Source: Aliivibrio sifiae
Lineage (GTDB): Bacteria > Pseudomonadota > Gammaproteobacteria > Enterobacterales > Vibrionaceae
Reading direction: 5' to 3'
Length of the DNA: 64,000 bases
Assembly (NCBI RefSeq): GCF_002954705.1
Contig: NZ_MSCO01000002.1
Location: forward strand, 1,106,956-1,170,955
The notes below the pieces were generated by a model. It had not been told where the DNA came from. It worked only from the letters and a program-made list of their open reading frames with translations, and searched no databases. The position numbers were made by a program, and so were the translations under genes. How positions within the stretch are numbered: position 1 is the first letter of the stretch; every line of letters starts with the position of its first letter. Below, piece after piece: positions 14,851 through 37,074 of this stretch.

Positions 14851-14866
14851 TGCTAAAGGTGTGCCA
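14851..14866 (-). promoter_or_regulatory. Sigma-54-like promoter upstream of hcp
   Basis: Minus strand TGGCACACCTTTAGCA has the invariant GG and GC separated by exactly ten bases, close to the -24/-12 consensus TGGCAC-N5-TTGCA. It would start transcription about 35 bases before the hcp ATG. RpoN control of hcp clusters is known in Vibrio cholerae; use here is inferred. Confidence 0.6.
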
Positions 14867-15170
14867 ATTTTAATAACATTAAAAATCAATGAGTTGATAG
14901 AATAATAAATATATACGTAATAATTTTCGTTTGAAAAGCAATCAAAGAAGAACAAATTTGAATCAAACTAAAAAACATGCCAGATTAATTAGTATTAAAT
15001 ACCAAATACATTATTTTAGAACTGTTTCGCAAATACTCTCCCTACAATGCCAAGTTAACATTTCGAAACATTCTCTGCAAAAATAAACAAAAACCCACCT
15101 TTAATCACACTCTCATTTTAATTGGCACAGTATAAAGAATATACAGATGCGAACTTAAAAAGGAGAATAA
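14867..15170. other. AT-rich intergenic region between hcp and the DUF1538 operon
   Basis: About 300 bases carrying the divergent promoters of hcp and the DUF1538 operon. Apart from the sigma-54-like site just left of it I see no gene and no clear operator. TGGCAC occurs again at 15123-15128 on the plus strand but without a properly spaced GC. Confidence 0.5.
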
Positions 15171-15905
15171 GTGAACGCCATTAAAGCAATGTTAAGTGCC
15201 ATGCTTGGAAGTTTTCGCGATCTCCTGCCTATTATTCTTGTTATCGCTTTCTTTCAATTGGCCGTACTACAAGAGCCCTTACCAAACCTTGGTTCTATCC
15301 TTTTTGGTTTGCTACTTGTGGTATTGGGTTTGACCTTTTTTATCTTTGGTTTAGAGATGGGGTTATTCCCTATTGGCGAATCGATGGCACAAGCATTTGC
15401 CAGAAAAGGTAGCGTGGCTTGGTTATTACTTTTCTCTTTTTGTCTTGGATTTGGTACCACCATAGCAGAGCCCGCCCTTACTGCGGTCGCTGCCGAGGCT
15501 GCTGAAGTCGCCGCAGAAGGAGGAATGATCCCACATACTGAAAACGATATGGATGATTATACCAATGGGCTTCGACTCACCGTTGCTCTGTCCGTTGGTT
15601 TTTCTATCGTGCTCGGGGTGTTACGAATTTTAAAAGGTTGGCCAATTCATATCATGATCATCGGTGGTTATATTACCGTGGTCGCTCTTACGTGGTTCGC
15701 GCCAGAAAATATAATTGGCATTGCCTATGACTCTGGCGGCGTAACAACATCCACAATTACAGTTCCCTTAGTTACCGCTCTTGGTGTCGGCCTTGCTTCT
15801 ACCATTAAAGGGCGAAATCCCATGCTTGATGGTTTTGGTCTTATCGCTTTTGCTTCGTTACTACCTATGATTTTTGTCATGATCTATGGGATGGTATTAG
15901 CATGA
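15171..15905 (+). CDS. DUF1538 membrane protein, first copy
   Basis: 244-residue hydrophobic protein with about six membrane segments, DUF1538 type. The C-terminal signature [20 protein letters not shown] followed by [20 protein letters not shown] is repeated almost exactly in the next gene, so the pair arose by duplication and probably forms a two-subunit transporter. The [14 protein letters not shown] motif sits near residue 100. The start is a GTG with AGGAG seven bases upstream. The family is a predicted transporter of unknown substrate. First gene of a four-gene operon; overlaps the next by four bases. Confidence 0.8.
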
Positions 15906-16693
15906 ACAGTTTAACTCTATTTCTTGAAACCTTCTTATCAACCATTCGCGATGTATTACCGATTGTCGTTATTATTTTTGGCTTCCAATTTGCGGTACTA
16001 AAAAAACCAATAGCCAATTTACCTAAAGTCATTCTTGGCTTCTTTTACGTAATATTAGGGCTATCTCTATTTTTAATGGGATTAGAACTCGCACTCTTCC
16101 CGTTAGGTGAATCTATGGCTGCACAATTAACCGCGCCTGACTTTATCTATGACGGTAAAGATCTATTAAGCCAAACCTTTGATTGGGTCGATTACTATTG
16201 GGTTTATATTTTCGCTGCAACGATCGGATTTAGTACTACCATTGCAGAACCATCACTCATTGCCGTTGCTATAAAAGCCAATGCGGTTTCTGGAGGAAGT
16301 ATTAGCGTTAATGGATTACGTATTGCTGTTGCTTTGGGTGTCGCCTTTGGTATTTCTCTTGGTAGTTATCGAATTATTGTCGGTGATCCTATCCACTATT
16401 ACATCATGGTCGGCTACGTCATTGTGGTGATTCAAACCTTTTATGCACCAAAAATGATTATTCCACTTGCGTACGATTCTGGCGGCGTAACCACATCAAC
16501 CGTTACAGTACCTTTAGTCACCGCTCTGGGATTGGGGCTTGCCTCAACTATCCCCGGACGAAATCCCATGATTGATGGCTTTGGATTAATTGCCTTTGCC
16601 AGTTTATTTCCCATTATTTCCGTTATGACTTACGCACAAATCAGTGCTTATAAAGCCAAAACAAAATTTAGATCTCAAGAAAATACGAATTAA
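15902..16693 (+). CDS. DUF1538 membrane protein, second copy
   Basis: 263 residues, paralogue of the preceding gene with the same order of motifs: [54 protein letters not shown]. Six or so membrane segments. The ATGA overlap with the first copy implies co-translation. The glycine-rich [16 protein letters not shown] stretch looks like a re-entrant or substrate-path segment, though this is inference. The substrate is unknown; control by the downstream P-II-like protein is probable from gene order. Confidence 0.8.
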
Positions 16694-22478: not shown

Positions 22479-22892
22479 TCATATGCGAGTTTTTCTCGAT
22501 AAATAGACAATTAATTTTTTTTGAGCCAACTCAGTCTTATCTTTGAATAAACCTATATAGCGTAAACTCATGCTTTCAGATTGATGTCCAATAACGGTCA
22601 TCAACAATCCAATATCTTTACCCGTAGCAAAATACAAATGTCGAGCGAAGCTCTTCCTTAATGTATGACACCCTACCTTTACATCAACACCAATCTCTTT
22701 CAATATCGCGGCCAATTTAGAAAAAACATACCAACAAGCTTGTCGAGTCAACAGTCCCTCCCCTCCTTTTGCACGATTACTTGAGAGCGTCTGACGATTA
22801 AAGATATAGTCATTAGCTAGCTCTTTATACTCTTGTTTTCGTTGTTTAAGAGTTATTAGAATAAATTCACTTAAATAGAAAGTTCGTGTCAC
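22479..22892 (-). pseudogene. Tyrosine recombinase/integrase, C-terminal fragment
   Basis: 137 residues covering only the C-terminal catalytic half: CHTLRKSFARH gives the second-box His and Arg, VIGHQS the third-box His, and SLRYIGL the nucleophile Tyr. The N-terminal DNA-binding domain and the first catalytic Arg box are absent; just upstream the minus strand has residual protein-like sequence (NRKARNRLCF) in a different frame, so a frameshift plus deletion is likely. It cannot be a full recombinase, so it marks a decayed mobile element. Confidence 0.75.
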
Positions 22893-22955: not shown

Positions 22956-23840
22956 CTATAACGCTAATTGCCATCTCTGTAATGGCGCTTTACTGTTTAT
23001 TCCTGCTCTGCCCCAACGATCAACCGCATCAACAACCAATACGCGATCCATAGGCAGCAATGCTTGCATCTGTTTGTTTGGCTTTTGAGTTGTGATAATC
23101 CAAACTGACTCATCTTCTTCAATTAATTCTTTCAACTGTGCTTTATCATCTTCTGTCCATTCAAGAGCAGGCTTTGTTAAGCGATCAACCACAAACAATT
23201 GATTACCAGAGGCAAAGTCTTCTAACTGCTCAGACAACAAAATAACTGAATCGATATCATTATCTAAAATCACTTTTTGTTGTTGATTAATTAATTGACG
23301 TACCGACAGCATAAATTGCTCTTGGTTTTTTTGGATCTGCTCTGATTTATCAGGCCAGATACGTTGAAAGTCATCACTAACAATCGCTACCATTCGGATT
23401 AAATTTGTTGGGTTTAACCATGCGTATTTTGAACTCGATCCATCAGATAAACGTAATGCTGCCACACCTTGTGCGCGAGGAGTGATTGCTTGAGAGGCAT
23501 CAACCTCAATAATCTGAATATTGCTGTATCTTGCGTTCACATACAGAGGATCATCAGCCCATACCGCACCAATCGTCACAACTGCTTGGGCTGTTTTTGC
23601 TGAATCTTGAACGGCTTTAGACCCCTTGTTGGCAAACCAATTGGGTAAACGTTCAATTCCATAACGGTTTGGTGGTAAATATTTTGTCGTTAATGAAGTC
23701 TCTTTTAATAGCTCGCTTGATAGCATATACGTCACAGGCGTTGCGGTTAATACATCGGCTGCCATTGCTGCTTTCATATTAAATAGCGAAGCTACACATA
23801 CACTAGCAATCACTATCCATTTCATTGAATTCTGTTTCAT
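22956..23840 (-). CDS. Divergent metal ABC transporter substrate-binding protein (FpvF-like)
   Basis: 294 residues with signal peptide MKQNSMKWIVIASVCVASLF to about AMAA. The chain follows the cluster-A (ZnuA) layout, including a VVTIGAVWADDPLY block and a C-terminal lobe, but lacks the spaced histidine ligands of ZnuA; the mature protein has almost no His. It is the last gene of the operon, after the permease, so the importer has two binding proteins as in P. aeruginosa FpvC/FpvF. It probably pairs with the ZnuA-like protein or recognises an apo- or ferri-siderophore; this is inference. Confidence 0.7.
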   Translation of the reverse strand: MKQNSMKWIVIASVCVASLFNMKAAMAADVLTATPVTYMLSSELLKETSLTTKYLPPNRYGIERLPNWFANKGSKAVQDSAKTAQAVVTIGAVWADDPLYVNARYSNIQIIEVDASQAITPRAQGVAALRLSDGSSSKYAWLNPTNLIRMVAIVSDDFQRIWPDKSEQIQKNQEQFMLSVRQLINQQQKVILDNDIDSVILLSEQLEDFASGNQLFVVDRLTKPALEWTEDDKAQLKELIEEDESVWIITTQKPNKQMQALLPMDRVLVVDAVDRWGRAGINSKAPLQRWQLAL

Positions 23841-23892
23841 TTCTGATCCTATCTATACCTATGTTCTTCGATTATTATTGAGTTCTATTCTG

Positions 23893-24768
23893 TTAATTCT
23901 TACGAATAATTCGGTAGCTCGTCGCAAGTAAAAAGAAGAAAGCTGAAACGATAATAATCGCTGCTCCAGAAGGCACTGGCATTTCTAATTCCATCGGTAA
24001 TACGGTGCCAATCAAGCACGATATTGTCGCTAATAACGCAGACATTAAGACAAAACTGCCCATGTTCTTAGTTAACAGTCGAGCTGTCGCACCAGGTATG
24101 AGTAATAACGCGCCAACTAAAACCGCACCGACAATTTTTACCGATGCAATCGTCACAAGAGTAATCATCATCACAAACAGGTAGTCATAAAAATTGGTTT
24201 TGTAGCCACGAACTCTGGCAATATCAGGGCTGATACAGGTTAATAAAATACGATTAAACGTCGGAATTAATACCACCACTATCAATAAACAACTGCCCGC
24301 TAAAATCGCAATATCTTGATCCGTCACCGTTAGGATGGAACCAAACAATACGTTCTCTAGCATGTGAATATTAATTTTACGTGCTACGTACATCAGTAAT
24401 GCAGCCCCCACAGCCAATGCTAAGGCAAGGAACACCCCAACTAACGTATCGTAAGGCACATTGGTTCGGTTTCTCACAAAATGCAGTAACAAAGCAAAGA
24501 TCATACAGAAACTAAATAAGCCGATAATTGGATTCTCTGCGGGCTCTCCCAATAACACGCCTAACGCGATACCTGTTAAGGCGGCGTGACCAACGGCTTC
24601 AGAGAAAAAGGCCAAACGCTTTGCAATCACTAACGTCCCCAACCCACCTAACAATGGTCCTAAAAGGACCGCAGCAACAATTGCATTAACCATAAAGGCA
24701 TACGAAAAACTGTCACTTAAGAAGCCTTGCTCGACGCCATATAACGCCCACTGACGAAACAGTTCCAT
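23893..24768 (-). CDS. Metal ABC transporter permease (ZnuB/FpvE-like)
   Basis: 291-residue inner-membrane permease of the ABC-3 family with about eight hydrophobic segments. Diagnostic stretches: GPLLGGLGTLVIAKRLAFFS, EAVGHAALTGIALGVLLGEP, and VKIVGAVLVGALLLIPGATA. It forms the import channel with the ATPase that overlaps its start by one base. Metal identity (Fe, Mn or Zn) is not decided by the permease; the Fur-box-like site before the operon and linkage to siderophore genes favour iron. Confidence 0.9.
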   Translation of the reverse strand: MELFRQWALYGVEQGFLSDSFSYAFMVNAIVAAVLLGPLLGGLGTLVIAKRLAFFSEAVGHAALTGIALGVLLGEPAENPIIGLFSFCMIFALLLHFVRNRTNVPYDTLVGVFLALALAVGAALLMYVARKINIHMLENVLFGSILTVTDQDIAILAGSCLLIVVVLIPTFNRILLTCISPDIARVRGYKTNFYDYLFVMMITLVTIASVKIVGAVLVGALLLIPGATARLLTKNMGSFVLMSALLATISCLIGTVLPMELEMPVPSGAAIIIVSAFFFLLATSYRIIRKN

Positions 24769-25532
24769 TATGCAGCCTCTCCATTATTAGTTTTTGATGC
24801 ATCATACTGAGCACTTGCACCCGTATAATGATTGAATAATCGCTCAATTTTCTCAGGTTTTAATACTTCTGAATAACAACCAGAATCAACCAAATTACGA
24901 TTAATAACATGCACATGTGCTTTAAGGCGACGAACAGCGGTGACATCATGATGAACAGCTAATACGGTTTTACCTTGCGCGATAAATTCATGCATTAAGG
25001 ATTCAAGATAGCGAACCCCGTGTTCATCCATTCCTGTGGTTGGTTCATCAAGAACAAGTAGATCAGGATTATCCAATAACGCTTGTGCGAATAACACGCG
25101 TTGTTGCTCGCCACCAGAAAGTTGACCCATGCGGCGATCGGCACGATTAGACATGCCAACACGCTCTAACTGTGCCATTGCAAATGCTTCTTGGCTGCTT
25201 TTCTTGCGCCATAGCGCACTTAAAAATAGAGGCACTCGCGTTTGATTCAATAAAATGAAATCTTTCACCGTTAGTGGCAAACTAGATTCAAAGACTGCTT
25301 TTTGTGGTACATAGCCAATCACGCCTTTCTGCTCTGGCCACTCAATATTAATTTCACCTTGAAACGCGGTTAATCCTAAAATTGAACGCAATAACGAGGT
25401 TTTACCACCGCCATTAGGCCCCATAATCACATGGCATTGACCGGCTTCAAGACGTTGGTTAACCCCTTCTAGAATGGTATTTTCACCATAAGAGAGCCCA
25501 ACATTGGTTAAGGAAATTGCTGGTCCTGACAT
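24768..25532 (-). CDS. Metal ABC transporter ATPase (ZnuC/FpvD-like)
   Basis: 254 residues: Walker A GPNGGGKTSL (about 39-48), Q-loop VIGYVPQKA, signature LSGGEQQRV, Walker B LLVLDEPTTGMD, H-loop VLAVHHDV. It powers the cluster-A importer with the downstream permease. It overlaps the upstream binding-protein gene and the downstream permease gene by single bases, so the three are translated together. Confidence 0.93.
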   Translation of the reverse strand: MSGPAISLTNVGLSYGENTILEGVNQRLEAGQCHVIMGPNGGGKTSLLRSILGLTAFQGEINIEWPEQKGVIGYVPQKAVFESSLPLTVKDFILLNQTRVPLFLSALWRKKSSQEAFAMAQLERVGMSNRADRRMGQLSGGEQQRVLFAQALLDNPDLLVLDEPTTGMDEHGVRYLESLMHEFIAQGKTVLAVHHDVTAVRRLKAHVHVINRNLVDSGCYSEVLKPEKIERLFNHYTGASAQYDASKTNNGEAA

Positions 25533-26455
25533 TATTTAGCATCCTTATCTGCAACGAATTTCATGGCTTCGATTAGAGTGTCTAAATTTGATTTCATCTC
25601 GATTTCAACTTTATTGTCTTCATAAGGGCCATGCGTCATGTGAGAAAAACGATACAGCTGAACGCCTGTTGCCTCTTCAATCGTATCGACAAAACGGTTT
25701 GGCATGTTCAATTCATAAAATAAAACATCAATGTCGGATTCACGGATCTTTTCAATCGTGCCTTGCAGTTGGCTCGCACTTGGCTCTACGCCGTGAGCGG
25801 GTTCAATGACTGCTGCCACATCCACACCAAACTCTTGAAGAATGTAACCATACGCATTGTGCGTAGTTGCGACCTTCATGCCCGCCGTATCTAATTCACC
25901 CAGAGAGAGCATTGCATCACGCTTCATTAATCGGAATTTTTTCGCGTATTTACGTGCATTTTTACGGTAGAACGAGGCATTTTCAGGATCAATTCGAGAT
26001 AACTCATTGGCAATGGTGTAAACCTTTTGAATTGTTGTAGATAAACCAACAAATGTGTGTGGGTTCACCGCACCTTTACCGACCGATTGCCCCATCGCGG
26101 GTAACAAAGGAACGTCTTTATTGGCTTCTAATACCATTAATTCGCTGTTGTTTGCCGCCGAAATTACTTTTAACGCAAAATCATCGTGTCCAATGCCATT
26201 AACAACAATTACATCCATTTTATTTAAACGTTTTAAATCGTTTGGTTGGGGTAAGTAATTGTGTGGATTAAACCCTGCATCAACCAAAGGAAGAATTTCT
26301 GCTTTATCTCCCACAACCGCTTTTACATAGCTGTAATAAGGCTGTAAGGTAATACCAATCACCAAAGGTTTTGTTGCCGACATCGCCGACGAAGAAAACA
26401 AAGAGAGTAAGCTAAGCAGAACAAAAGAACGTACGTATAAAATAGATTTCATCAT
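25532..26455 (-). CDS. Metal-binding ABC transporter protein (ZnuA/FpvC-like)
   Basis: 307 residues, signal peptide to about residue 26 (LLSLLSLFSSSAMSA). Cluster-A solute-binding protein: ligand residues visible are His65 (NPHNYLPQ), His133 (NPHTFVG), His199 (TTHNAYGY) and an acidic residue near 248 (FYELNMP). Lacks the His-rich loop of true zinc ZnuA. It binds a divalent metal in the periplasm and passes it to the permease. In this context ferrous iron released from a siderophore is the most likely cargo; Mn or Zn are alternatives. Confidence 0.88.
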   Translation of the reverse strand: MMKSILYVRSFVLLSLLSLFSSSAMSATKPLVIGITLQPYYSYVKAVVGDKAEILPLVDAGFNPHNYLPQPNDLKRLNKMDVIVVNGIGHDDFALKVISAANNSELMVLEANKDVPLLPAMGQSVGKGAVNPHTFVGLSTTIQKVYTIANELSRIDPENASFYRKNARKYAKKFRLMKRDAMLSLGELDTAGMKVATTHNAYGYILQEFGVDVAAVIEPAHGVEPSASQLQGTIEKIRESDIDVLFYELNMPNRFVDTIEEATGVQLYRFSHMTHGPYEDNKVEIEMKSNLDTLIEAMKFVADKDAK

Positions 26456-26477
26456 TATTATTTATCTTTTATTGGTA

Positions 26478-27035
26478 TCAATTTAAATGAGAGTCATGAG
26501 CAGGGAAGATAACTTGTACCCACTGCTGTTGAATGAGTTCGCTTTCATTCCAAGAGATAAAATCAGAAGAAGTAGACATCACATCAGAGTTCAGCCAAAG
26601 CTCAATATCATCGCCTTTCGCGTTAAAAATGAATGATGCAGCGCCTTCTTGTTTCGTTTTTAAACCCAAGTAAACCCCAGAGCCTAAATGCTGCCATTGG
26701 TGCATTCCACGGCGCTCCCAACTTTGGTCTTGTACAAAAGGCGGTAACCATTCATCTGCTAAGTAAGCAATCTCTGGCCATGAACTCTCTTTTGTTGATT
26801 CAGCCTGAATATCGTAAATTTCTTCATAGGCTAAACGTAGCTCAGCAATCATAGCTAAATCGTCTTGTGCTAAATCGGTGATAAGAACTTGGTGTGATTC
26901 AAGCTTTACGCCTTCATCGTTCGATTGATGATATGGCAACCCGACCACCGCAATAAGCAAAATGCACCCAATAATGAGTGCGATCCATTTGCCTTCTGCG
27001 CTTCCATTATCTGGAGTGACAGATTGAATAATCAT
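26478..27035 (-). CDS. Single-span membrane protein, DUF6162-like
   Basis: 185 residues. A short cytoplasmic N terminus, one membrane segment about 15-33 (WIALIIGCILLIAVVGLPYH), then a periplasmic domain with several Trp residues (SSWPEIAYLADEWLPPFVQD, MHQWQHLGSGVYLGL). It matches in size and topology the family placed beside metal ABC importers (DUF6162, from memory) and takes the place of FpvK in the Pseudomonas system. Function unknown; probably part of the periplasmic iron-release or handover complex. Overlaps the preceding gene by four bases. Confidence 0.65.
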   Translation of the reverse strand: MIIQSVTPDNGSAEGKWIALIIGCILLIAVVGLPYHQSNDEGVKLESHQVLITDLAQDDLAMIAELRLAYEEIYDIQAESTKESSWPEIAYLADEWLPPFVQDQSWERRGMHQWQHLGSGVYLGLKTKQEGAASFIFNAKGDDIELWLNSDVMSTSSDFISWNESELIQQQWVQVIFPAHDSHLN

Positions 27036-27349
27036 TTCTCTGAGATCTCGACAACATCGACTTCAACAGGGCTTTCGTGTCCTGAATCAAACACTAAATA
27101 AAAATCCGTTTCAGGGTTTGTAAATTCTGCAATTGAGCGTTTATCTGTGGTTACTTTTGCAATCAAATTATCATCGTAATCATACATATTTACATCGTAA
27201 TCAACGGCTTTACTGCCATCACTGTAGCCTGTTTCACACAGCACTTGATCCGATTCAAACCAACAGCTCATTAATGGAAAATGCGCAAAACTTGCAGAAG
27301 AAAAAAGAAGAGAAGAAACAAAAATGGTTTTCAGGTTTACTTTAGTCAT
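27032..27349 (-). CDS. Small periplasmic protein
   Basis: About 105 residues from the ATG at 27349 (MTKVNLKTIFVSSLLFSSAS signal peptide, cleavage near SFA). Mature part: HFPLMSCWFESDQVLCETGY with two cysteines that may form a disulfide, then a beta-rich domain resembling a small Ig-like/carboxypeptidase-regulatory fold (YDYDDNLIAKVTTDKRSIAE). The mature N-terminal His and acidic patches could bind metal. In the P. aeruginosa parallel it would take the place of FpvJ. Overlaps DUF6162-like gene by four bases. Confidence 0.65.
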   Translation of the reverse strand: MTKVNLKTIFVSSLLFSSASFAHFPLMSCWFESDQVLCETGYSDGSKAVDYDVNMYDYDDNLIAKVTTDKRSIAEFTNPETDFYLVFDSGHESPVEVDVVEISEK

Positions 27350-27406
27350 GGATAAATCTCGATAAAAAAGCACCACGCGCCCTTATGGGGAGTGGTGCTA
27401 ACTGCA

Positions 27407-28252
27407 TTATTGAAGTAGAGCTTCAAACGTTAAGTGAACATTTACGCTTGCTTGTTCTGCAAGTGGATGGTCTTTCAATTCACCTTTATAATTTGATTTC
27501 ATCAGGTAACGACCCGCAGTTTCAGGAGTAAAGGTGATCTTTCCTTCTTTATCACTCACTACGTCAATTTGTTCTTGATGATTGCGATATAGCGTCCCCT
27601 CACGAGTAATATCAGCCGTTACGCCCGCTTGAGGTTTACCATTAAAGAAGAATTGGAAAGTCACTGACTCGCCTTCAATAATGTCAGACGGGTGAGTTAA
27701 TGGTTTAAGCTCTAACAAGGTATTATCAAGCTTCATCGCTTCTGTTGTTGGCTTACCCACTGTCACATAGCTTTCAGCACGAGTGAAACTCACTTGGCTT
27801 ACGACATCACGCGATTTTTTAGGCAACACTAAATCACGATCAGCCTTGGTAGCTTTAATCCATTTCACCGTATCACGACGACCTGCTTTATATTGGGTGT
27901 AGTACGTCGGTTCATTATTGATACGAACTTTATGTGTGCCTTCTTCTTCAAAATAGAAATCGAACATTGAACGACGTTTGCCTTTAACCACAAAGTTTGG
28001 ACGCTCGGTACGACCATCAGGCATAACTACTTGTGCTTGATCACTTCCTGCTGGTTTATCGAAAACAAACGTTCCGTGTGACGCGGTCACATCAAACGTA
28101 AGCCAATCACCACCTTCTTTAGATACTGTAAAATGAGAAGGCAATACCCAACGAGGGTGAGCGTTCGCAGTAGTAGCAACCAGTAAACCTGCTGCCATCA
28201 CGCCAGTTAATACTGCGGCTTTGAACTTACTGTTCATTAATGTTGTTTTCAT
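27407..28252 (-). CDS. DUF4198 periplasmic protein
   Basis: About 281 residues from the ATG at 28252, with signal peptide ending ATTANA before HPRWVLPSHF. The mature protein is a DUF4198 (NikM-like) two-domain beta protein: LTFDVTASHGTFVFDKPAG, DIIEGESVTFQFFFNGKPQ, then KITFTPETAGRYLMKSNYKG. Family members sit next to metal transport genes and may bind metal via an N-terminal His; here His follows the cleavage site. An upstream ATG at 28282 is possible but would put a non-signal-like extension before the signal peptide. Confidence 0.8.
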   Translation of the reverse strand: MKTTLMNSKFKAAVLTGVMAAGLLVATTANAHPRWVLPSHFTVSKEGGDWLTFDVTASHGTFVFDKPAGSDQAQVVMPDGRTERPNFVVKGKRRSMFDFYFEEEGTHKVRINNEPTYYTQYKAGRRDTVKWIKATKADRDLVLPKKSRDVVSQVSFTRAESYVTVGKPTTEAMKLDNTLLELKPLTHPSDIIEGESVTFQFFFNGKPQAGVTADITREGTLYRNHQEQIDVVSDKEGKITFTPETAGRYLMKSNYKGELKDHPLAEQASVNVHLTFEALLQ

Positions 28253-28287
28253 AATATGTTTAATTCCCTGATAAATAGACATCTAAA

Positions 28288-28812
28288 TTATTTTTTATAA
28301 TGGATGGTGATTTCGCCAGTCTCTTCTGTTGGCTTTAACTGATAAGTCATATCACTATTACCGAGTGTCATTTTTTGACGTAGGTAATTACGGCCACCAT
28401 GTTCACGTACGACTTCAATGTGTAACGTGTAATCACCTTGCGGTAAGGCTTGACCAGAATCATCTTTGCCATCCCAACTAAACTTATATTTTCCTGCTGG
28501 TCGTGTTGCTGATGTAACTGCATCGATTAACTCGCGATCATAACGACCAACTTTTCTCCACCAGCTTCTTAAATCTTTTAGCCACTCATCTTTACCAACC
28601 CAAAGCTCAATCGTTTTTACTGACTTACGCTCGCTGTTTTCAATCCACACCGCTACATAAGGGCGTGCATACATGGTGGTCGTAATCGTCGGAAGCTCAA
28701 AAGCAACATCGACTTTTGCACTCTCAGAAATAGTCGCTGAATTAACCAAAAGAGGCGTCGTTACTATCATCGCTGCAATTGAATGACGTAAATAGGTAGA
28801 GAGTGAAGCCAT
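28288..28812 (-). CDS. DUF2271 periplasmic protein
   Basis: 174 residues from the ATG at 28812 (MASLSTYLRHSIAAMIVTTP; RBS AAGGA eight bases before). A longer upstream reading frame exists but overlaps the PepSY gene. DUF2271 features: YVAVWIENSERKSVKTIELW, WLKDLRSWWRK, FSWDGKDDSGQALPQGDYTL and the FlgD-like fold implied by the last. DUF2271 proteins follow PepSY proteins in many bacteria and are linked to flavin or heme/iron redox biology. In this operon it likely works with the PepSY protein in periplasmic iron release (FpvH position). Confidence 0.8.
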   Translation of the reverse strand: MASLSTYLRHSIAAMIVTTPLLVNSATISESAKVDVAFELPTITTTMYARPYVAVWIENSERKSVKTIELWVGKDEWLKDLRSWWRKVGRYDRELIDAVTSATRPAGKYKFSWDGKDDSGQALPQGDYTLHIEVVREHGGRNYLRQKMTLGNSDMTYQLKPTEETGEITIHYKK

Positions 28813-28844
28813 TGTGATGTCCTTATGGATACAAGATAAAAGGG

Positions 28845-29489
28845 TTAAGGTACGGCAATAAAATACAATGCAAGCGTGATTGATGAGCCAAATGCCATCC
28901 ACTTCATTGATGTCATCAGTGTTCTTTTTTTCGGTAAAATTAAGCACACGCCCGTAAGTACAAAAAAGACCATTAATAGCGCGGTAATATCAATGAATGC
29001 CTTCCAGACCTCACCGCTGTTTCGTCCTTTGTGTAAATCATTTAATAACGCAACAACGCCATAATTTGAGCTTTCGATGTCTGCTATGCCTGTCGTTAAA
29101 TCAATATAAACAGACGCGTTATAACCAGGTCCTTTATAGTTTAATGACAATTCACCCTCAACTAATTCACCGTCTTCAACCTCGGTAAAAACATCGACAT
29201 TAGAAGGCGTTCCAGAGAGGTCGGAATGCTGATTTAAGTAATTAAGCAAAGCGGCAGTGTTTGGTTTATTCCAAAATACTTTCTGATTTTCATCTAGAGA
29301 AAAAAGCACATTATTAGGAACAGAAAGAGTGGTATTTTTGATGTCTGGAGAACTGCTGACAAACCAATCAGGGCGATTTAGCGTGATCCCTGTGATCGAG
29401 AAAAATAAGACAACGAGTAGAAGCGCCATTGATACGTAGACATGTAAGCGACGCGCCCACAATTGTACTTGTTTATTTTTAAGCAGCAT
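28845..29489 (-). CDS. PepSY-associated membrane protein (FpvG-like)
   Basis: 214 residues: membrane segment about 16-36 (VYVSMALLLVVLFFSITGIT), a periplasmic domain about 40-160 with LNDLHKGRNSGEVWKAFIDI, and two C-terminal segments (ALLMVFFVLTGVCLILPK and WMAFGSSITLALYFIAV). The layout and LHKGR motif are typical of PepSY membrane proteins. Relatives include inner-membrane reductases such as FpvG that reduce ferric siderophores. First gene of the nine-gene operon, preceded by a Fur-box-like site. Confidence 0.8.
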   Translation of the reverse strand: MLLKNKQVQLWARRLHVYVSMALLLVVLFFSITGITLNRPDWFVSSSPDIKNTTLSVPNNVLFSLDENQKVFWNKPNTAALLNYLNQHSDLSGTPSNVDVFTEVEDGELVEGELSLNYKGPGYNASVYIDLTTGIADIESSNYGVVALLNDLHKGRNSGEVWKAFIDITALLMVFFVLTGVCLILPKKRTLMTSMKWMAFGSSITLALYFIAVP

Positions 29490-29527: not shown

Positions 29528-29546
29528 TAATTGATAATGATTTGCG
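29528..29546. promoter_or_regulatory. Fur-box-like site before the PepSY-ABC operon
   Basis: TAATTGATAATGATTTGCG contains TGATAATGAT, matching the left part of the Fur consensus GATAATGATAATCATTATC. It lies about 40-57 bases before the PepSY gene start, where Fur would block the promoter. Match is by eye. Confidence 0.6.
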
Positions 29547-29615
29547 TTGACATTCAATTTACATTATTTACGTTTGTGGAAATTGTTAACGTCTATATTT
29601 ATTGAAGAAGTGAAA

Positions 29616-29649: not shown

Positions 29650-30852
29650 TTACACTGAATTATTGGCTGTTTTTCTCAGTTGCGACAAATACTTTATCCA
29701 TCCTTTTGCTTCATTTGATGGGGTAAAATCATTGGCTCTTTTCGCATGAAGTAACGCTGAATCTATTTGGTTCAATTTGTAATAAGCTCTTACTTTCGCT
29801 AACGCGATATCCTCGGTCTTTTTGTAATCTTTTACTTTATCTAAAGTTTTCAAGCCCTGTTTGTGGCGACCTTCTTGAATTTGCAATTGTGCAACCTGCC
29901 AATAAAAACGTGAATCTAGCGTCGCGGCTTTTGACCAAGTAACAATGGCTTTATCCCACTCTTTTGCTGCTTGCCAATAACTTGCTTGCATGGTCAGTAA
30001 ATCAATATCACTTTGCGCTTCATCTAACTGACTTAGTACTTCAGCGGCTTTCTCTGGGATACCGCGTTGAGCATAAAGTTGAGCCAATAACTTCAGTTCT
30101 GATTGACTCAATTCTATCCCTTGTCGTTGAGCGAGAACCAAGGTATTTAACGCCTCTTTAGGTTGATTTAAGCGAAGTTGAATACTTGATAACTGCTGCC
30201 ACCACGTCGCTTTATTTGGTTCTAATTCCAATAAGCTGTTTAATGTTGGGATGGCCGATTTCCATTGTTTTAATTGTAATTGTGCGCCTAGCTTAAGCAC
30301 TAACGATTGGCTTTTTTCGCTTTCTTTCTTATATTTAGCAACACGTTCATGCTTATTTAATGCAGAAAGGACCTTTTCCCATTGAGCCAACTGGTAATGG
30401 GTTTGAGAAATACGGAACCATAAATCCCCAATATTCTGCTTTTCAGGGAGTGTTTTTGTTAATTGGTAATAATGCGGTAAGGCATCAGAAAAGCGTTGCT
30501 CAGTAAGTAAAAGATCCGCCAACATACGCTGAGTTACCCATGCCTGCTCATCGGCTAACTGCTTACTATTCACCGCTTTTGAAAGATAACTAACCGCTGA
30601 ATTACTGTTGCCTGATTGCCAATAAAAAACACCCAACATACGTTGAATATAAGCTTTATCGTAATCGTTAGAAGGCGTGAGTACTGCCAATACATTAATC
30701 GCCTCTGGTATTTTTTCTTGCTGTTGTAATTGCAACGCTCGCTGTACTTTGCCCGCATTGTATTGACTAAGTTGCTGAGCTTGCACAGCCTCTGCAAAAA
30801 ATAAAGCGGCGCTAAGAATAAGAACAGAAGCATGTAATTTTAATTTCATCAT
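29650..30852 (-). CDS. TPR-repeat protein of the TonB operon
   Basis: About 400 residues from the ATG at 30852, whose ATGA overlaps the tonB stop. Signal peptide LHASVLILSAALFFAEAVQA, then helical tetratricopeptide repeats through most of the chain (AWVTQRMLADLLLTEQRFSD, ATWWQQLSSIQLRLNQPKEA, EDIALAKVRAYYKLNQIDSA). Periplasmic. In vibrio TonB2/TonB3 clusters a TPR protein follows tonB and supports function of the complex. Longer upstream in-frame start (30936) overlaps tonB and is unlikely. Confidence 0.85.
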   Translation of the reverse strand: MMKLKLHASVLILSAALFFAEAVQAQQLSQYNAGKVQRALQLQQQEKIPEAINVLAVLTPSNDYDKAYIQRMLGVFYWQSGNSNSAVSYLSKAVNSKQLADEQAWVTQRMLADLLLTEQRFSDALPHYYQLTKTLPEKQNIGDLWFRISQTHYQLAQWEKVLSALNKHERVAKYKKESEKSQSLVLKLGAQLQLKQWKSAIPTLNSLLELEPNKATWWQQLSSIQLRLNQPKEALNTLVLAQRQGIELSQSELKLLAQLYAQRGIPEKAAEVLSQLDEAQSDIDLLTMQASYWQAAKEWDKAIVTWSKAATLDSRFYWQVAQLQIQEGRHKQGLKTLDKVKDYKKTEDIALAKVRAYYKLNQIDSALLHAKRANDFTPSNEAKGWIKYLSQLRKTANNSV

Positions 30853-31469
30853 TTTGCTAACGTAAACTCCAATTTCACCGTTTGTCCAACTTGAGCAATG
30901 GCTTTCCCACCGACTATTTTTGGTTGATATTTCCATTTTTTCAACGCTTTAACGGCTTCTCTTTCAAACATTCTACGCGGTTTAGCGTCCGCCACTTTTA
31001 CATCGGTTGGACGCCCTTGTTCATCAATGGTAAATGACATAACAACAAAGCCTTCAGCGCCTCTTTTCATTGCTTTTGATGGATAGCGAGGCTCAACACG
31101 ATACAAAGGCATCGCTTGTTGATTACCGGTAAAATCTGCAAAACTCGGTGCATTAATCGCTAACCCTGAAATACCAGAATCCAAGCTCATTGGTGGCATT
31201 GAACTTTGTGGCGTCGCCATTGAGGTTTGAGTTTGAGACGCCATCGGTTTTGCCTCTGGTGGCGGCTCTGGTGTCTCTGGTTTTTCAGGCACTCGACGTT
31301 GACGACGTTGAACATCTTGATCTTGCTCTACCATCACCATATCAAAGCGAATCGTTTCACTGCTTTCAGGTTTACCGTTATGACCGTTGTCTACCATCCA
31401 CGCCATAAACGTGAATAGCCCTACCGTCATAGAAAGCGCAATAGGCACTGCCAACAATAATCGCCACAT
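30849..31469 (-). CDS. tonB: TonB energy transducer
   Basis: 206 residues: N-terminal membrane anchor (LLLAVPIALSMTVGLFTFMA), proline-rich periplasmic linker (PEKPETPEPPPEAKP), and C-terminal TonB domain (YRVEPRYPSKAMKRGAEGFV, VKALKKWKYQPKIVGGKAIA). The short length and domain style match TonB2/TonB3 of vibrios rather than the classical TonB1. It couples the proton gradient via ExbB/ExbD to outer-membrane receptors, here probably the one at 34614. Confidence 0.93.
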   Translation of the reverse strand: MWRLLLAVPIALSMTVGLFTFMAWMVDNGHNGKPESSETIRFDMVMVEQDQDVQRRQRRVPEKPETPEPPPEAKPMASQTQTSMATPQSSMPPMSLDSGISGLAINAPSFADFTGNQQAMPLYRVEPRYPSKAMKRGAEGFVVMSFTIDEQGRPTDVKVADAKPRRMFEREAVKALKKWKYQPKIVGGKAIAQVGQTVKLEFTLAK

Positions 31470-31873
31470 TAATTTTTCTCCGCAGCCAATGCGATGCCTT
31501 TAACTCCCGCACCTTTAGCCGCATCCATGACTTTCACAACCGTACCGTTGTACGCATGTTCATCTGCTTGGATCACTAACGATACATCTGGTTGCTCTAG
31601 TAATAAATGCTCTAATGTCGCTTGAACTCGCTCTGCATCCACCATACGTTTATCAATGAAGATATCGTTAGACGCCGTGATTGCAACAAAGATACCGGCG
31701 TCTTTTTGACTTGATACATTACTCGCTTGAGGGCGATTTACTTCTACCCCTGATTCCCGAACAAATGAACTGGTTACGATAAAAAAGATCAGCATGATAA
31801 ATACGATATCAAGCATTGACGTTAAATCGATTTGTGCTTCTTCTTGATTTGAAGAACGACGGCCAAGTCTCAT
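31469..31873 (-). CDS. exbD: ExbD
   Basis: 134 residues; one membrane segment about 20-38 (LTSMLDIVFIMLIFFIVTSS) with the conserved Asp25-type proton-path residue (SMLD), then a periplasmic domain. Member of ExbD/TolR. Start overlaps nothing but is two bases after exbB; overlaps tonB start by one base. Works with ExbB as the proton-driven motor of TonB. Confidence 0.93.
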   Translation of the reverse strand: MRLGRRSSNQEEAQIDLTSMLDIVFIMLIFFIVTSSFVRESGVEVNRPQASNVSSQKDAGIFVAITASNDIFIDKRMVDAERVQATLEHLLLEQPDVSLVIQADEHAYNGTVVKVMDAAKGAGVKGIALAAEKN

Positions 31874-31875
31874 GA

Positions 31876-32379
31876 CTAACTCCTTAATGCTTTTTCTAAA
31901 TGATGTTCTTTACGGCGGCATACTTTGGCTAAACGGGCATGGACAAACATACCCGCTAGCGCAGCAACCATGCCTGCCATGGTTGGTAATGTGGCTAATG
32001 AGATACCAGAAGCCATCAATTTAGGCTGGCTGCTGCCTTGATTTGCCATCACATCAAACACTGAGATCATGCCTGTTACTGTGCCTAACAAACCGATCAT
32101 TGGGCAAATAGCAACAAGCACTTTGATGAAATTCATATATTGATTGAGCTGAAGATGTGCTTCACTTATCCAGCCATCACGGATCGTTTTTGCGTACCAC
32201 GAATCGTGGTCGTCTCGCTGTTGCCATTTTTCTAAAAATACTTTTCGTTGCGCAGGAAAAGTAAATAATAAGAAAAACACACGCTCAACCACCAATAGCC
32301 AACACACGGCAACAACTGCACCCAACCACCATAAAATGGGGCCGCCTTGTGCCATAAAGTGAGAGAGAAAAGCCGTCAT
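31876..32379 (-). CDS. exbB: ExbB (MotA/TolQ/ExbB family, short)
   Basis: 167 residues with three membrane segments: about 15-35 (ILWWLGAVVAVCWLLVVERV), about 95-115 (VAICPMIGLLGTVTGMISVF) and about 125-150. The GLLGTVTGMI motif is the family hallmark. The second, short ExbB of a TtpC-type system. Overlaps the TtpC stop by one base. Confidence 0.92.
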   Translation of the reverse strand: MTAFLSHFMAQGGPILWWLGAVVAVCWLLVVERVFFLLFTFPAQRKVFLEKWQQRDDHDSWYAKTIRDGWISEAHLQLNQYMNFIKVLVAICPMIGLLGTVTGMISVFDVMANQGSSQPKLMASGISLATLPTMAGMVAALAGMFVHARLAKVCRRKEHHLEKALRS

Positions 32380-33734
32380 TACGCTGCCATTCCCATTGGT
32401 TTATTCAACGTTTCTTTTTCTGCTTGCTCAGCCACCAAACTCAAGCCTTGTTTTTCAAGAATAGTACGAATACTTTCCGCTTGTGAGCTTAAAATATTGT
32501 GAGTTAGTAACAATGGCATCGCTGCAACTAAGCCAAGCACCGTCGTCACTAGCGCCATTGAAATACCACCCGCCATCACTTTAGGGTCGCCATTACCAAA
32601 TTGCGTGATCACTTGGAACGTTTCGATCATGCCTGTAACTGTACCTAAAAGACCTAACATTGGTGCCAATGCTGCTAATAGCTTCAGCATCGAAAGGCCT
32701 TTTTCTAGCCCTTGTTGCTCATCAACAATAGTTTCTAATAAGCGCAACTCTAAAGCTTCTACTGAACGATTCTGCTCTGCATCATAAACAGACAACACAC
32801 GGCCTAGTGGATTCTGTCCTATGTTTTTTGGATCTTTTAATTGAGTACGGATTTGCTGGCGAACAACAAGCAATCTAACCCCATTAAATAATGAAATAAG
32901 TAAACCAATCGACAATAAACCCAAGATAATTTTACCCACAACACCACCCGCTTGAAGGCGATCTTTTAGGGTTGGGGAATTTGCTAGTTGATCAAGCATA
33001 ATCCCACGAGAAGGGTCAGCAACCATCATCATTACTTGCTGCTGCTCCATTATAGATAATGTAGCTACAGAAGGAGCGAGATCGGGTTGTTGTGCATAAT
33101 ACGTCGCAACTTGTTTTTTGTTATCCCAATGTAAAAAGCCTTCATCACCAATCAATGCCATATTACCCAAGCGATACGCATTGATTTCAGAACGATGACC
33201 AGCACCATTAATAACAGTTATTGGTATTAACGATAAATCCGAACTTGCTTGCGCTTGTTGGGCCATGGTTTGCCATAAAGCCGTTAGTTGGCTCATTGAT
33301 GGCAAAGATTTAGCCGCAACAATATCATTAATTATCTCAGCATTATTAGCATCAGTCATGCCTGTTACTGAGTTTTTCAATTCAACATCAAGGTCTTTTG
33401 CCGTCTGTCTAACCACACCAAAAAGCTCACCTAAACTGCCTGTCTCTAAATGCAATTGCTGCTCTAAAGTTGCTAATGTCTTTTCATTTTTACTAAACGT
33501 TGCGCTTAAAACATCACTCTCTTTTTGCAGTTGTTTACGTTCTGCAATGAGTGCATTTTTTTGAGCCTTCAAGCTCTGTTCAGTTTGCTTAAAACCAGAT
33601 TCTCGCTGAGCATTATGTTGTTTTTGATCTTGGCTTGCTTGTTTTGTTTCTTGAACTAATTCTGAACTTGCCGCTACGCCATAAGTAGAAAAGCCCAGCA
33701 GTGAAATAGCTAAAATAAGTGGTTTAATCGTCAT
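32379..33734 (-). CDS. TtpC-like long MotA/TolQ/ExbB protein
   Basis: 451 residues. Signal-like N terminus (MTIKPLILAISLLGFSTYGV AA), a periplasmic coiled-coil part about 25-130 rich in Gln/Glu/Lys, a middle domain, a membrane segment about 270-290 (VGKIILGLLSIGLLISLFNG), and an ExbB-like core with LGLLGTVTGMIETF and GISMALVTTVLGLVAAMP. TtpC is required with ExbB2-ExbD2-TonB2 in vibrios. The MotA/TolQ core and coiled coil agree with TtpC. Two bases after the DUF3450 gene. Confidence 0.88.
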   Translation of the reverse strand: MTIKPLILAISLLGFSTYGVAASSELVQETKQASQDQKQHNAQRESGFKQTEQSLKAQKNALIAERKQLQKESDVLSATFSKNEKTLATLEQQLHLETGSLGELFGVVRQTAKDLDVELKNSVTGMTDANNAEIINDIVAAKSLPSMSQLTALWQTMAQQAQASSDLSLIPITVINGAGHRSEINAYRLGNMALIGDEGFLHWDNKKQVATYYAQQPDLAPSVATLSIMEQQQVMMMVADPSRGIMLDQLANSPTLKDRLQAGGVVGKIILGLLSIGLLISLFNGVRLLVVRQQIRTQLKDPKNIGQNPLGRVLSVYDAEQNRSVEALELRLLETIVDEQQGLEKGLSMLKLLAALAPMLGLLGTVTGMIETFQVITQFGNGDPKVMAGGISMALVTTVLGLVAAMPLLLTHNILSSQAESIRTILEKQGLSLVAEQAEKETLNKPMGMAA

Positions 33735-33735
33735 G

Positions 33736-34503
33736 TTATTTCACCTCTTTTAAAGATAAAGAGATAGGAAGAACCAATAAACTTGGTGCAATTTGTTTGT
33801 AAGCTAATGCGTAAGCTTTACCTAGCTCATCATTGAATGAAGAGTCAACCGCTTGCCATTGGTTGGTGTAGGTATTCCAACTCCAATATTGCGATGAATC
33901 TAAACGGCGAGCCATCAATGAAACACGACCTAAATGCAGCATATCGGCATCAATTAGTTCATCATTTTCTACGGTAATTTGCGTTTGATATGAACCTAAT
34001 TTTGAACCGTAATCCATTTCAATTTGATACGCTTCAAGAATACGACGGTACTTCTCGGCATCGCTAACATCTGCTCTTGTCATCATATGCTCAAGCTTTT
34101 CGATGCGTAGTTGACGCTCTTCAATCTTGATTGGTTTATCTTGCTCAACAAGGTCGGTTAATCCTGAAAGCATTTTATACATCAATGGAACAACGCCTTG
34201 GCGAGTGTCTTTGATGGTTTCAATTTGAGTATTTAAGTTAGTCATTTCTTGTTGCTGACTATTCACCAAACCAGTGAGGTGATCACGATAGACCGCAAGA
34301 TTCTTTACTTCTTCTTGAAGTCGCTCAATATCCGCTTTATACGCTAGCGTTGCTTCTGCGCTTTTATCAATTTTGCTTTGGCTAACTGCTGAAGCCGTAT
34401 TTGATTTACTCTCGATAGATCGAGCTTGATCAAGAGTGTTCGCTTGAGCGGTTGTGATCACGGTAGCTAACGCTATTCCAATACTGGTTTTTAAAATATT
34501 CAT
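33736..34503 (-). CDS. DUF3450 periplasmic coiled-coil protein
   Basis: 255 residues with signal peptide MNILKTSIGIALATVITTAQ (cleaved near AQA). Long coiled-coil region about 45-110 (EATLAYKADIERLQEEVKNL, VNSQQQEMTNLNTQIETIKD), then a globular C-terminal part with DSSQYWSWNTYTNQW. DUF3450 genes precede ttpC in vibrio and Shewanella TonB clusters. Likely a periplasmic partner of TtpC. First gene of the TonB operon. Confidence 0.82.
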   Translation of the reverse strand: MNILKTSIGIALATVITTAQANTLDQARSIESKSNTASAVSQSKIDKSAEATLAYKADIERLQEEVKNLAVYRDHLTGLVNSQQQEMTNLNTQIETIKDTRQGVVPLMYKMLSGLTDLVEQDKPIKIEERQLRIEKLEHMMTRADVSDAEKYRRILEAYQIEMDYGSKLGSYQTQITVENDELIDADMLHLGRVSLMARRLDSSQYWSWNTYTNQWQAVDSSFNDELGKAYALAYKQIAPSLLVLPISLSLKEVK

Positions 34504-34613: not shown

Positions 34614-36716
34614 TTAGTATTTAACTTGCAGTGTCGCCATGTAGTTTCGGCCCTCGCCAATAACAACATTTTGCGCACCATCGGTTGCATAACCATTTTT
34701 ACCCGTTGAACCGCCACCCGCTAAATAATCAGTATCGAATAAGTTTTCAACATTAAAACGAGCTACAAAGGTTAAATCTTGATCGTATTTAATCGTATGT
34801 GCTAAACCTAAATCAAAACGAGTGTAGCCATCTTTCTTAAAGGTATTCGCTGCATCTCCGTAACGCTCACCCACATAAATAGCACCTAGATTTGCATTGG
34901 TATTATTTGTGAATGCATAACGAGTCCACACCGTAGCTGAATACTCAGGTACATCCGCAGGGCGGTTACCTTCATATTTTTCATCTTTTGCATATTCAGC
35001 ATCTAAATAAGTAGCAGAACCACTCATAGATAACTGCTCAGTAATAAAGCCTTGTACTGCTAACTCAGCACCACGGTGAACTCGCTCTCCTGATTGTGTT
35101 TTTTCTTTCTTACCATTACCTAAATCAACATCAATCATAGAGTTTTCTTGTGTAATATCAAACACAGCACCAGATACGAACAATTGGTTATCCATTAGCT
35201 CCCATTTAGTACCTAGTTCATATAGTTTACCGCGTAATGGATCTAACTTTTGACCATCATTTACATATTCATTACCAGAAACTTCACCTTGCATTTCAAA
35301 GCTTTCAGAATACGTGGCATAAATAGAACCGGAATCTGTTGGGTGATAAATTACAGCCAATTTAGGAGAAGTAGCCTCTTCAGCTAAACCTTCTTCAACT
35401 TGTCGATCAAAACGAACACCCACAAGTGCTTGCCATTGCTCATTAAATGTAATCATATCTTGAGCATAGAAACCCCATGTATCGTATTCTGAATGAGTAT
35501 CTCGAGGATCTTTATTTGGGTTACGAACAGGGGCTTGAGCTGGTTCACCAACCGTTGCTGTTGTACTGTTGAATGAATACTCTAAACGATCATAGCTATA
35601 ACCTAACCAGTTGCTACCAAACAACATTTGGTGGCTTACACCTAATGCATCGAATTCACCAATAAGATCAATACTTGCTGTTTGGAATACCCAATTATCA
35701 GTACGATCACTACCACCCTGAGTATAAGTACCCGTCGTTGGATCATATGTTTCTTCTTTCGGGAAGCTTTCTACATCATGACGGTTAAAATCTTGGTAAT
35801 TATAACTTGCATTAATACGCCATGTATCTGTTAGATTTGCAGCAACATCAATACCTATATTTTCAACATCATTTTCAATTTTTGACCACTGCGCATCCCA
35901 GATATGATCATCACCAATTACTGTTTTGCCATCTTTGATATATGCGCCAGAATCGACACTACCATCATCAATTGTACGGTCGTAATGCAGTGAAACAGTC
36001 ACGTCTTCTGTTACATCATAATCTAAGAATAAACCACCAACAAAACGTTCAGTTGATGGGACTGTTCCATCACTGTATTCACGCCATGAGTTGTAAGTTT
36101 GTTTTGAAACAATTGCACGACCACGTAACGTTTGAGCATCATTTAATGAGCCACTCACATCAGCAGTTGTTCGTGAATCATTATTTGAGCCAAGATCTTG
36201 GCTAACACTTACTTGAGTTTCATAGGTTGGCTTCTTAGCCACCATATTAACTAACCCCCCCGGAGCTGATTGACCATAAAGCAAACCAGATGGACCTTTA
36301 AGAATTTCAACACGTTCTAGTAATTCAATTGGTTGACGGTAATGAGACCAATGCTGTTTTCCATCACGCAAAAAACCAGAGCTGCTGCTTAGCTCGAAGC
36401 CTCGTAACGTAAATTGTTCACGGTTACGTGTTGTTGCACCTGCACCAATACTCGCGTCATTCTTCAACACTTCACCAAGCGTACTTGCACGTTGCTCATC
36501 GATAAGCTGCTCATCAATCACGCTCACTTGCCCTGGAGTTTCTAGTTGAGTTGCCTCCATACGCATTGATGTTGAGTTTGTGTCGGCTTTATAACCGTAA
36601 TCACGGCCTGTAACGACCATGTGCTCATCAGTAGTTGATGTGTCTGTTTCAGCGTAAGCAAGAGGGGTAGATAAAACTGCGCCAATAACGAGAGCCAACT
36701 GACTTTTAGAAAACAT
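34614..36716 (-). CDS. TonB-dependent siderophore receptor (FhuA-like)
   Basis: 700 residues. Signal peptide MFSKSQLALVIGAVLSTPLA; TonB box region DEHMVVTGRD; plug domain with ETPGQVSVIDEQLIDEQRAS, QFTLRGFEL and ERVEILKGPSGLLYGQSAPG GLVNMV, typical of hydroxamate siderophore receptors; 22-strand barrel ending MATLQVKY with terminal aromatic. Imports a ferric siderophore using TonB, probably the TonB encoded next door. Ligand unknown: ferrichrome or ferrioxamine types are candidates. A Fur-box-like site lies about 60-77 bases upstream of the start. Confidence 0.92.
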   Translation of the reverse strand: MFSKSQLALVIGAVLSTPLAYAETDTSTTDEHMVVTGRDYGYKADTNSTSMRMEATQLETPGQVSVIDEQLIDEQRASTLGEVLKNDASIGAGATTRNREQFTLRGFELSSSSGFLRDGKQHWSHYRQPIELLERVEILKGPSGLLYGQSAPGGLVNMVAKKPTYETQVSVSQDLGSNNDSRTTADVSGSLNDAQTLRGRAIVSKQTYNSWREYSDGTVPSTERFVGGLFLDYDVTEDVTVSLHYDRTIDDGSVDSGAYIKDGKTVIGDDHIWDAQWSKIENDVENIGIDVAANLTDTWRINASYNYQDFNRHDVESFPKEETYDPTTGTYTQGGSDRTDNWVFQTASIDLIGEFDALGVSHQMLFGSNWLGYSYDRLEYSFNSTTATVGEPAQAPVRNPNKDPRDTHSEYDTWGFYAQDMITFNEQWQALVGVRFDRQVEEGLAEEATSPKLAVIYHPTDSGSIYATYSESFEMQGEVSGNEYVNDGQKLDPLRGKLYELGTKWELMDNQLFVSGAVFDITQENSMIDVDLGNGKKEKTQSGERVHRGAELAVQGFITEQLSMSGSATYLDAEYAKDEKYEGNRPADVPEYSATVWTRYAFTNNTNANLGAIYVGERYGDAANTFKKDGYTRFDLGLAHTIKYDQDLTFVARFNVENLFDTDYLAGGGSTGKNGYATDGAQNVVIGEGRNYMATLQVKY

Positions 36717-37074
36717 ATTCCATTATCTCCAAATCTTTTATTAAACAAGTGATTAAATTCTGAGATGGAATATAAATGATAATTGTTACTATTTGCATTA
36801 AATTTACATTCTTTGCATTTGTATAGAAACCTCACTCTATTTAAACCAACCAATTTTATTAGTAACAAAATAAAAGCAAAGTTATCACAAACTAAGCAAA
36901 CGTTTTATTTCGATAAAATAAAATCAAACATACCGCTATTAATAGAATTCTCAATTTTGAGCTTAACATTACACTTTCTGACATATATAAACTTTTTCTT
37001 ACACGAAATTAACCCCAAAGTGGTAATATAAATTATGACCACACAAAGAATGTGGCTAAATTAAGGATCATATT
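36717..37074. other. Divergent intergenic region, receptor / torY
   Basis: About 358 AT-rich bases between the minus-strand receptor and plus-strand torY. It contains the Fur-like site at 36775-36793 near the receptor. No gene; I see no confident TorR, Fnr or NarP site by eye. Confidence 0.5.
36775..36793. promoter_or_regulatory. Fur-box-like site before the FhuA-like receptor
   Basis: AATGATAATTGTTACTATT matches ATGATAAT of the Fur consensus with a partial inverted arm. Position fits iron repression of the receptor. Confidence 0.6.

Follow-up and report, generated by a model that had tools for sequence, protein, structure and literature searches.

The window, a stretch of 64,000 nucleotides on contig C2 of the 4.46-Mb Aliivibrio sifiae genome, has a GC content of 39% and contains a block of nine genes on the minus strand. 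The open reading frame (ORF) listing and the Pfam matches showed that the nine ORFs at 22956-29489 are real, and that they belong to the families named in an earlier prediction made from the sequence alone (the original prediction). In reading order, they encode a PepSY protein, a DUF2271 protein, a DUF4198 protein, a small His/Cys protein, a DUF6162 protein, a ZnuA-like protein, an ATPase, an ABC-3 permease, and a second binding protein. As shown in Table 1, the last six are named here after the fpv genes of Pseudomonas. The block is preceded on the same strand by genes for a siderophore receptor, TtpB, TtpC, ExbB, ExbD, TonB, and TtpD, and by a gap of 160 bases with a Fur-like site. The original prediction assigned the locus to a vibrio, which holds in the wide sense only; the genome clusters with Aliivibrio. 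The ends of signal peptides and the membrane-spanning segments were placed by eye or taken from a structure model.

Table 1. Coordinates of the nine-gene block and of the adjoining receptor and TonB2 genes (aa, amino acids; blastp values are against the Pseudomonas reference locus L049)
Feature	Position	Strand	Basis
FpvF-like second binding protein	22956..23840	-	ZnuA-like 28.1 bits, just below cut-off 29; 27% to Pseudomonas FpvF (blastp, E 4.6e-28)
FpvE-like ABC-3 permease	23893..24768	-	ABC-3 184.5 bits; 52% to Pseudomonas FpvE (blastp, E 2.4e-97)
FpvD-like ABC ATPase	24768..25532	-	44% to Pseudomonas FpvD (blastp, E 1.5e-68)
FpvC-like metal-binding periplasmic protein	25532..26455	-	ZnuA Pfam 166.5 bits; 51% to Pseudomonas FpvC (blastp, E 6.5e-106)
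FpvK-like DUF6162 protein, single span (by eye)	26478..27035	-	PF19659 53.6 bits; 30% to Pseudomonas FpvK (blastp, E 4.5e-21)
FpvJ-like small periplasmic protein, His and Cys pair	27032..27349	-	29% to Pseudomonas FpvJ (blastp, E 1.7e-17)
DUF4198 protein, putative His-brace metal site	27407..28282	-	PF10670 159.4 bits
DUF2271 protein, putative flavinylated periplasmic electron carrier	28288..28812 (listed ORF to 28947)	-	PF10029 159.7 bits
DAVTSAT flavinylation-like motif in DUF2271	28504..28524	-	motif comparison
PepSY_TM_like_2 protein, 214 aa, putative one-heme transmembrane electron carrier	28845..29489	-	PF16357 185.5 bits
Fur-like site before PepSY gene	29530-29548		3 mismatches
TtpD-like TPR protein, final gene of TonB2 set	29650..30936	-	TPR families; position as in PMC6957404
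TonB, ExbD, ExbB, TtpC, and TtpB (TonB2 system)	30849..34503	-	names by position and by eye; order shared with many relatives
TonB-dependent siderophore receptor, PeuA position	34614..36716	-	TIGR01783 293 bits, cut-off 223.5
Fur-like site before receptor	36775-36793		3 mismatches

Overlaps of 1-4 bases had been predicted for many of the joins, and three of the eight joins do overlap: by 1 base at FpvC/FpvD and FpvD/FpvE, and by 4 bases at the small protein/DUF6162. The listed DUF2271 ORF seems to run into the PepSY gene only because of an early GTG; with the likely start at 28812 (by eye), there is no overlap. The small Cys-pair protein was listed as an ORF of 114 aa; its likely start (27349) was placed by eye, and no Pfam match was found.

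The block was compared with Pseudomonas genomes that were identified from the presence of fpvGHJKCDEF; they did not include P. aeruginosa itself, and the locus L049 served as the reference. The DUF6162 search reached L049 and four other loci with the complete fpvGHJKCDEF layout. The gene sizes at these complete loci agree with the published sizes of FpvG and FpvH (46 and 21 kDa, both of the inner membrane) and FpvJ (15 kDa, periplasmic) (PMC6954188). Genes 4-9 of the block correspond to fpvJ-K-C-D-E-F in both sequence and order. No blastp match to FpvG or FpvH was found for the PepSY, DUF2271, and DUF4198 proteins, and no blastp match to FpvH was found among the operon proteins as a whole. Profile comparison of the PepSY protein with FpvG gave 33 columns at a probability of 0.6%, and comparison of DUF2271 and DUF4198 with FpvH was negative; the Pseudomonas alignments consisted of five close rows in each case. 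The PF03929 match (PepSY_TM superfamily) is common to the window PepSY protein (47 bits) and FpvG (209 bits), and no further PF03929 match was found in the A. sifiae genome. Two candidate assignments were rejected. The PepSY protein is not FpvG, as it has 214 aa and three model helices vs 399 aa, no BLAST match, and no useful profile match; DUF2271 or DUF4198 is not FpvH, as both kinds of comparison were negative. Therefore, the one-to-one fpv mapping of the original prediction is correct for J-F but not for G and H, with FpvJ being the small Cys-pair protein. The operon is an fpvJKCDEF import module joined to a PepSY_TM_like_2-DUF2271-DUF4198 module, which replaces FpvG-FpvH.

The same arrangement is conserved across many marine bacteria. 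All nine genes were found in order at 77/80 loci of a set that comprises the best 80 of 560 confirmed loci; distant block types are under-sampled because these are the best-scoring ones. Of the other three, L102 meets a contig end, L152 has a split FpvD (two pieces), and at L177 no DUF6162 was recognised. In a second set, the nine genes were in order at 49/60 loci; of the other 11, five have the fpvGHJKCDEF layout, one has K-C-D-E-F-J, two have one gene split in two, one is truncated at a contig end, and two lack the block. The arrangement is thus not due to chance, since the order is kept in both sets. The genera with the block include Vibrio, Photobacterium, Aliivibrio, Moritella, Psychromonas, Ferrimonas, Motilimonas, Neptuniibacter, and others. 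The FpvC of the A. sifiae locus L099 is 99% identical to the window FpvC. Among 197 genomes of the family, FpvF was found in 83 (profile, E 1e-30 or better) and DUF6162 in 82 (E 0.001), 80 of them above the cut-off. The FpvF profile was bimodal in 398 genomes of the phylum, with 315-434 bits in 11 (A. sifiae included) and at most 53 in the others; five of these 11 genomes had supplied rows to the profile. In a class sample of 369 genomes, FpvF was found only in the A. sifiae genome. The FpvF match is interrupted by one stop codon in the genomes G133 and G119.

FpvC was compared with solved structures. Its closest solved relatives are 6ru4/6r3z (309 bits); the scores fall to 97 bits for the top manganese protein, 76 for the zinc protein AdcA, and at most 48 for ZnuA-named proteins. 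We take 6r3z, 6ru4, and 6r6k to be FpvC, given a near match to the Pseudomonas fpvC gene (by eye) and the PA2407 name. In the deposited mutant sequence 6r6k, glycine replaces six His residues, and the window equivalents are H65, H90, H133, H199, H221, and H272. These six His residues are kept in 138/138 FpvC rows. Some genomes are repeated via two routes in the counts of 132-138 rows given here and below; there are 108 distinct FpvC strings among the 138 rows. A search of the open-licence literature turned up nothing on the six-His site. No conserved His was found in the FpvF-like protein by conserved-residue comparison.

Two other proteins of the block have a His residue just after the likely end of the signal peptide (by eye). 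In the DUF4198 protein (AHPRW), H42 is conserved in 132/132 rows and H69 in 131/132 rows. In FpvJ (AHFPL), H32, C38, and C47 are each conserved in 138/138 rows, and the Pseudomonas FpvJ rows have the same N-terminal His. The A-x-A-H-type spelling was found in 72/79 FpvJ rows and 75/79 DUF4198 rows of the 80-locus set; the others differ beside the His. The structure model of FpvJ is a beta-sandwich with a predicted local distance difference test score (pLDDT) of 89.5. Together with the Ni(II) binding of a DUF4198 protein and the NikL similarity of FpvJ given below, these features suggest that DUF4198 and FpvJ are a NikK/NikL-like pair of metal carriers put to a new use; the nickel explanation considered below draws on the same data.

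The first three genes correspond to a module described in the literature as a gene cluster for a flavinylated reductase (PMC8238504). The structure model of the PepSY protein (pLDDT 91.6) has helices at 6-38, 159-184, and 188-212, and both H16 and H153 are invariant (132/132 rows each); a role of this protein as a reductase is plausible. A flavinylation-like motif is present in DUF2271 in 53/53 rows, and in 78/79 rows of the 80-locus set. The published motif is [S/T]GA[S/T] (PMC8238504). The window has TSAT within its DAVTSAT motif; the canonical form is found in L164, L169, L170, L176, L178, and the block copy of L177. A single ApbE match was found in the A. sifiae genome, adjoining an NqrF-like ORF (nqr), and none in the locus. 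At L177 (Colwellia sp. D2M02, 7148-15934), genes for an ApbE-DUF2271 fusion and an EF-hand protein are attached to the block, and an ORF lacking a Pfam match occupies the place of FpvK.

Fur-like sites were defined as having at most 3 mismatches to a Vibrio Fur 19-mer. Such a site precedes the first gene, as had been predicted. It precedes the PepSY gene at 29/53 loci vs 0.8% of shuffles, and the receptor gene at 33/36 loci vs 1.8% of shuffles. No Fur-like site was found before the inner genes FpvC (0/58), FpvF (0/58), DUF4198 (0/53), and FpvE (0/58). The window contains five Fur-like sites, and ten shuffles of it gave 0-4. They are located before the PepSY gene, the receptor gene, and bibA, beside the start of a response regulator near 42798, and inside bibB. 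One observation weighs against iron control of the block: the PepSY site has 4-7 mismatches in 6/7 Aliivibrio relatives.

Published expression data were matched to the window by position and annotation; none of those studies treats the nine genes together, and searches of the open-licence literature gave no description of the block as a unit. In V. parahaemolyticus, peuA-VPA0156, a TonB2 operon at the same position, is reported to be regulated by iron and Fur (PMC4141801). In A. salmonicida, VSAL_II0110-0112, with the same annotation and order, are up under chelation; in the extract of the chelation table, no gene was recognisable as part of the nine-gene block (PMC4324432). VPA0159 (COG5266), three places past VPA0156, is taken as the DUF4198 gene of the V. 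parahaemolyticus block. It changed at least 5-fold in DMEM vs LB-S, and in exsA vs exsD, in a secretion-regulator experiment (PMC3895804).

The block is often, though not always, linked to a receptor: within the fetched stretch, 45/52 and 55/79 block loci have a receptor or TonB2 gene. The nearest solved structure of the window receptor is FhuA (154 bits). Eight Aliivibrio loci have two receptor kinds, which are 95-96% and 89-97% identical within each kind and 59-62% between them. TtpB, TonB, and the compared block proteins of the same loci are 87-100% identical, with no division along the receptor kinds (L030 is without FpvC and FpvF). The release machine seems not to be tied to one receptor kind, since both kinds sit in a near-uniform stretch. 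Two siderophore gene sets were also observed in the genome. The first, at 45920-53465 (+), contains bibABC-like dihydroxamate siderophore genes (decarboxylase, N-monooxygenase, and acyltransferase-NIS synthetase), with a Fur-like site at 45791 and a FauA-like receptor (621 bits, cut-off 900); full-length BibC was found in 2/14 Aliivibrio genomes. The second (L201, G000:C2:1200000-1216000) is an aerobactin-like biosynthesis set with a receptor, an FhuB/C/D-like importer (by eye), and Fur-like sites.

Taken together, the operon is probably a periplasmic iron-release and ferrous-import machine, which is fed by the adjoining TonB2-driven receptor. We infer reduction, flavinylation, the identity of the metal, and a siderophore substrate in the following scheme. 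Electrons would cross the inner membrane via the PepSY protein, with one bis-His heme (H16/H153), and pass onto a covalent flavin (flavin mononucleotide, FMN) on DUF2271, attached by the single ApbE of the genome. The DUF2271 flavin might reduce Fe(III) in the siderophore held with FpvF. The Fe(II) would then be taken by DUF4198 and FpvJ at their N-terminal-His metal sites, then by FpvC, and then by FpvDE. The apo-siderophore would remain in the periplasm, available for re-export; siderophore recycling is plausible. A broader proposal, on which our judgement is evenly divided, is that the block represents a second route, from heme to covalent flavin, for freeing periplasmic siderophore iron, in which the FpvJKCDEF importer works with a reductase other than that of Pseudomonas and a NikK/NikL-like N-terminal-histidine pair carries Fe(II). 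This suggests that the pyoverdine iron-release machine might be modular, with one importer and iron-handling core and two different electron inputs. It would also give the flavinylated PepSY-DUF2271-DUF4198 clusters, whose role has so far only been proposed, a likely substrate and importer, and would give FpvJ and DUF4198 a likely job in Fe(II) transfer.

Three other explanations were considered. The first is a ferric reductase of general use in the periplasm, paired with a ferrous importer, which would take iron from any weak periplasmic chelate and is not dedicated to siderophores. Such a machine would fit the indifference of the eight Aliivibrio loci to receptor kind, and also the loci without a receptor and TonB2 in the fetched stretch. 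V. cholerae VciB is reported to be an iron reductase, and a Caulobacter PepSY cluster aids growth in EDTA (PMC8238504, PMC12004947). However, the FpvF-like protein, which binds pyoverdine in Pseudomonas (PMC6954188), is present in 80/80 loci, and TonB2 and a siderophore receptor are directly upstream at many loci. This explanation is unlikely, though it fares best of the three.

A nickel/cobalt system is less likely still. The DUF4198 and small proteins would be NikK/NikL-like, and the ABC importer would take up Ni(II) or Co(II), possibly delivered by a metallophore. The explanation stands because DUF4198 and FpvJ resemble NikK/NikL. An Ideonella DUF4198 protein binds Ni(II) by its N-terminal His and His18 (PMC12537917), and VPA0159 has been called orthologous to nickel transporters (PMC3895804). 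The small protein weakly matches the NikL model, but its 39 bits are well under the cut-off of 100 and do not place it in the family; the scores are 29.5 for Pseudomonas FpvJ, 44 for L050, and 36 for L177. Moreover, the importer half is homologous to the pyoverdine-iron importer (PMC6954188), Ni(II) uptake would not obviously need a reductase module, and the Fur-like sites and the setting of TonB2 and siderophore receptor indicate iron.

Ordinary zinc/manganese ABC uptake with unrelated neighbours, which the original prediction had also disfavoured, is very improbable: the Pfam names are ZnuA and ABC-3, but the nearest NCBIfam models (AztC 133, AztA 148, and AztB 138 bits) are all below their cut-offs (350, 220, and 280), the six His of FpvC are kept in all rows while the separate ZnuA of the genome (C1:773497; 22% identical to FpvC) has only three of them, and that znu locus has a Zur-like site (1 mismatch to a 13-mer pattern), the only Zur-like site of the window with at most 2 mismatches being at 2155, far from the operon.

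Other features were observed around the locus. An integrase-like C-terminal fragment (by eye) is directly downstream of the operon end (22479-22892, -), and a TorC/TorA-like trimethylamine N-oxide (TMAO) reductase pair is beside the receptor (37075-40630, +). VgrG/Hcp-like genes with a likely effector set (8237-14804, -) and a long ORF with MARTX/RTX-like features near the window end (57902-63952, -) were recognised by eye.

Comparison with known systems showed several partial similarities. In P. aeruginosa, FpvG, FpvH, FpvJ, FpvC, and FpvF interact in iron release (PMC6954188). The window shares with this system the homologous J, K, C, D, E, and F in the same order, the six-His FpvC, and a PepSY-superfamily protein in first place. 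However, the P. aeruginosa system has FpvG (399 aa; four membrane helices, PMC8891985) and FpvH, and the window has neither; in their place are DUF2271, DUF4198, and a 214-aa PepSY protein with two His, and the block follows TonB2 and the receptor. A second Pseudomonas-like cluster (L050, 13369-18869) contains K-C-D-E-F with J and a DUF4198 protein (178 bits), as in the window block, but no PepSY or DUF2271 was recognised within the stretch examined.

The PepSY-like flavinylation clusters (PF16357/PF03929-DUF2271-DUF4198, often with ApbE; PMC8238504) have the same three adjoining genes, and an iron link was proposed for them earlier. Comparable clusters include Caulobacter CCNA_03155-03159 (PMC12004947) and the Alteromonas pairs (PMC7190382). 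Unlike the published clusters, the window has this module in one operon with the FpvJKCDEF importer, ApbE elsewhere, and TSAT rather than [S/T]GA[S/T]. The siderophore reductase FoxB (7abw) is also of the PepSY_TM superfamily and has 155 of the 214 residues aligned, the most among the matches listed. However, it has a 365-residue chain and two heme sites (PMC11334425), and the structural score is weak. The NikKLMQO nickel/cobalt ECF transporters resemble the block in DUF4198 and the NikL-like small protein; Pfam matched none of the nine proteins to NikM, NikQ, or NikO, and the importer is of the FpvDE type.

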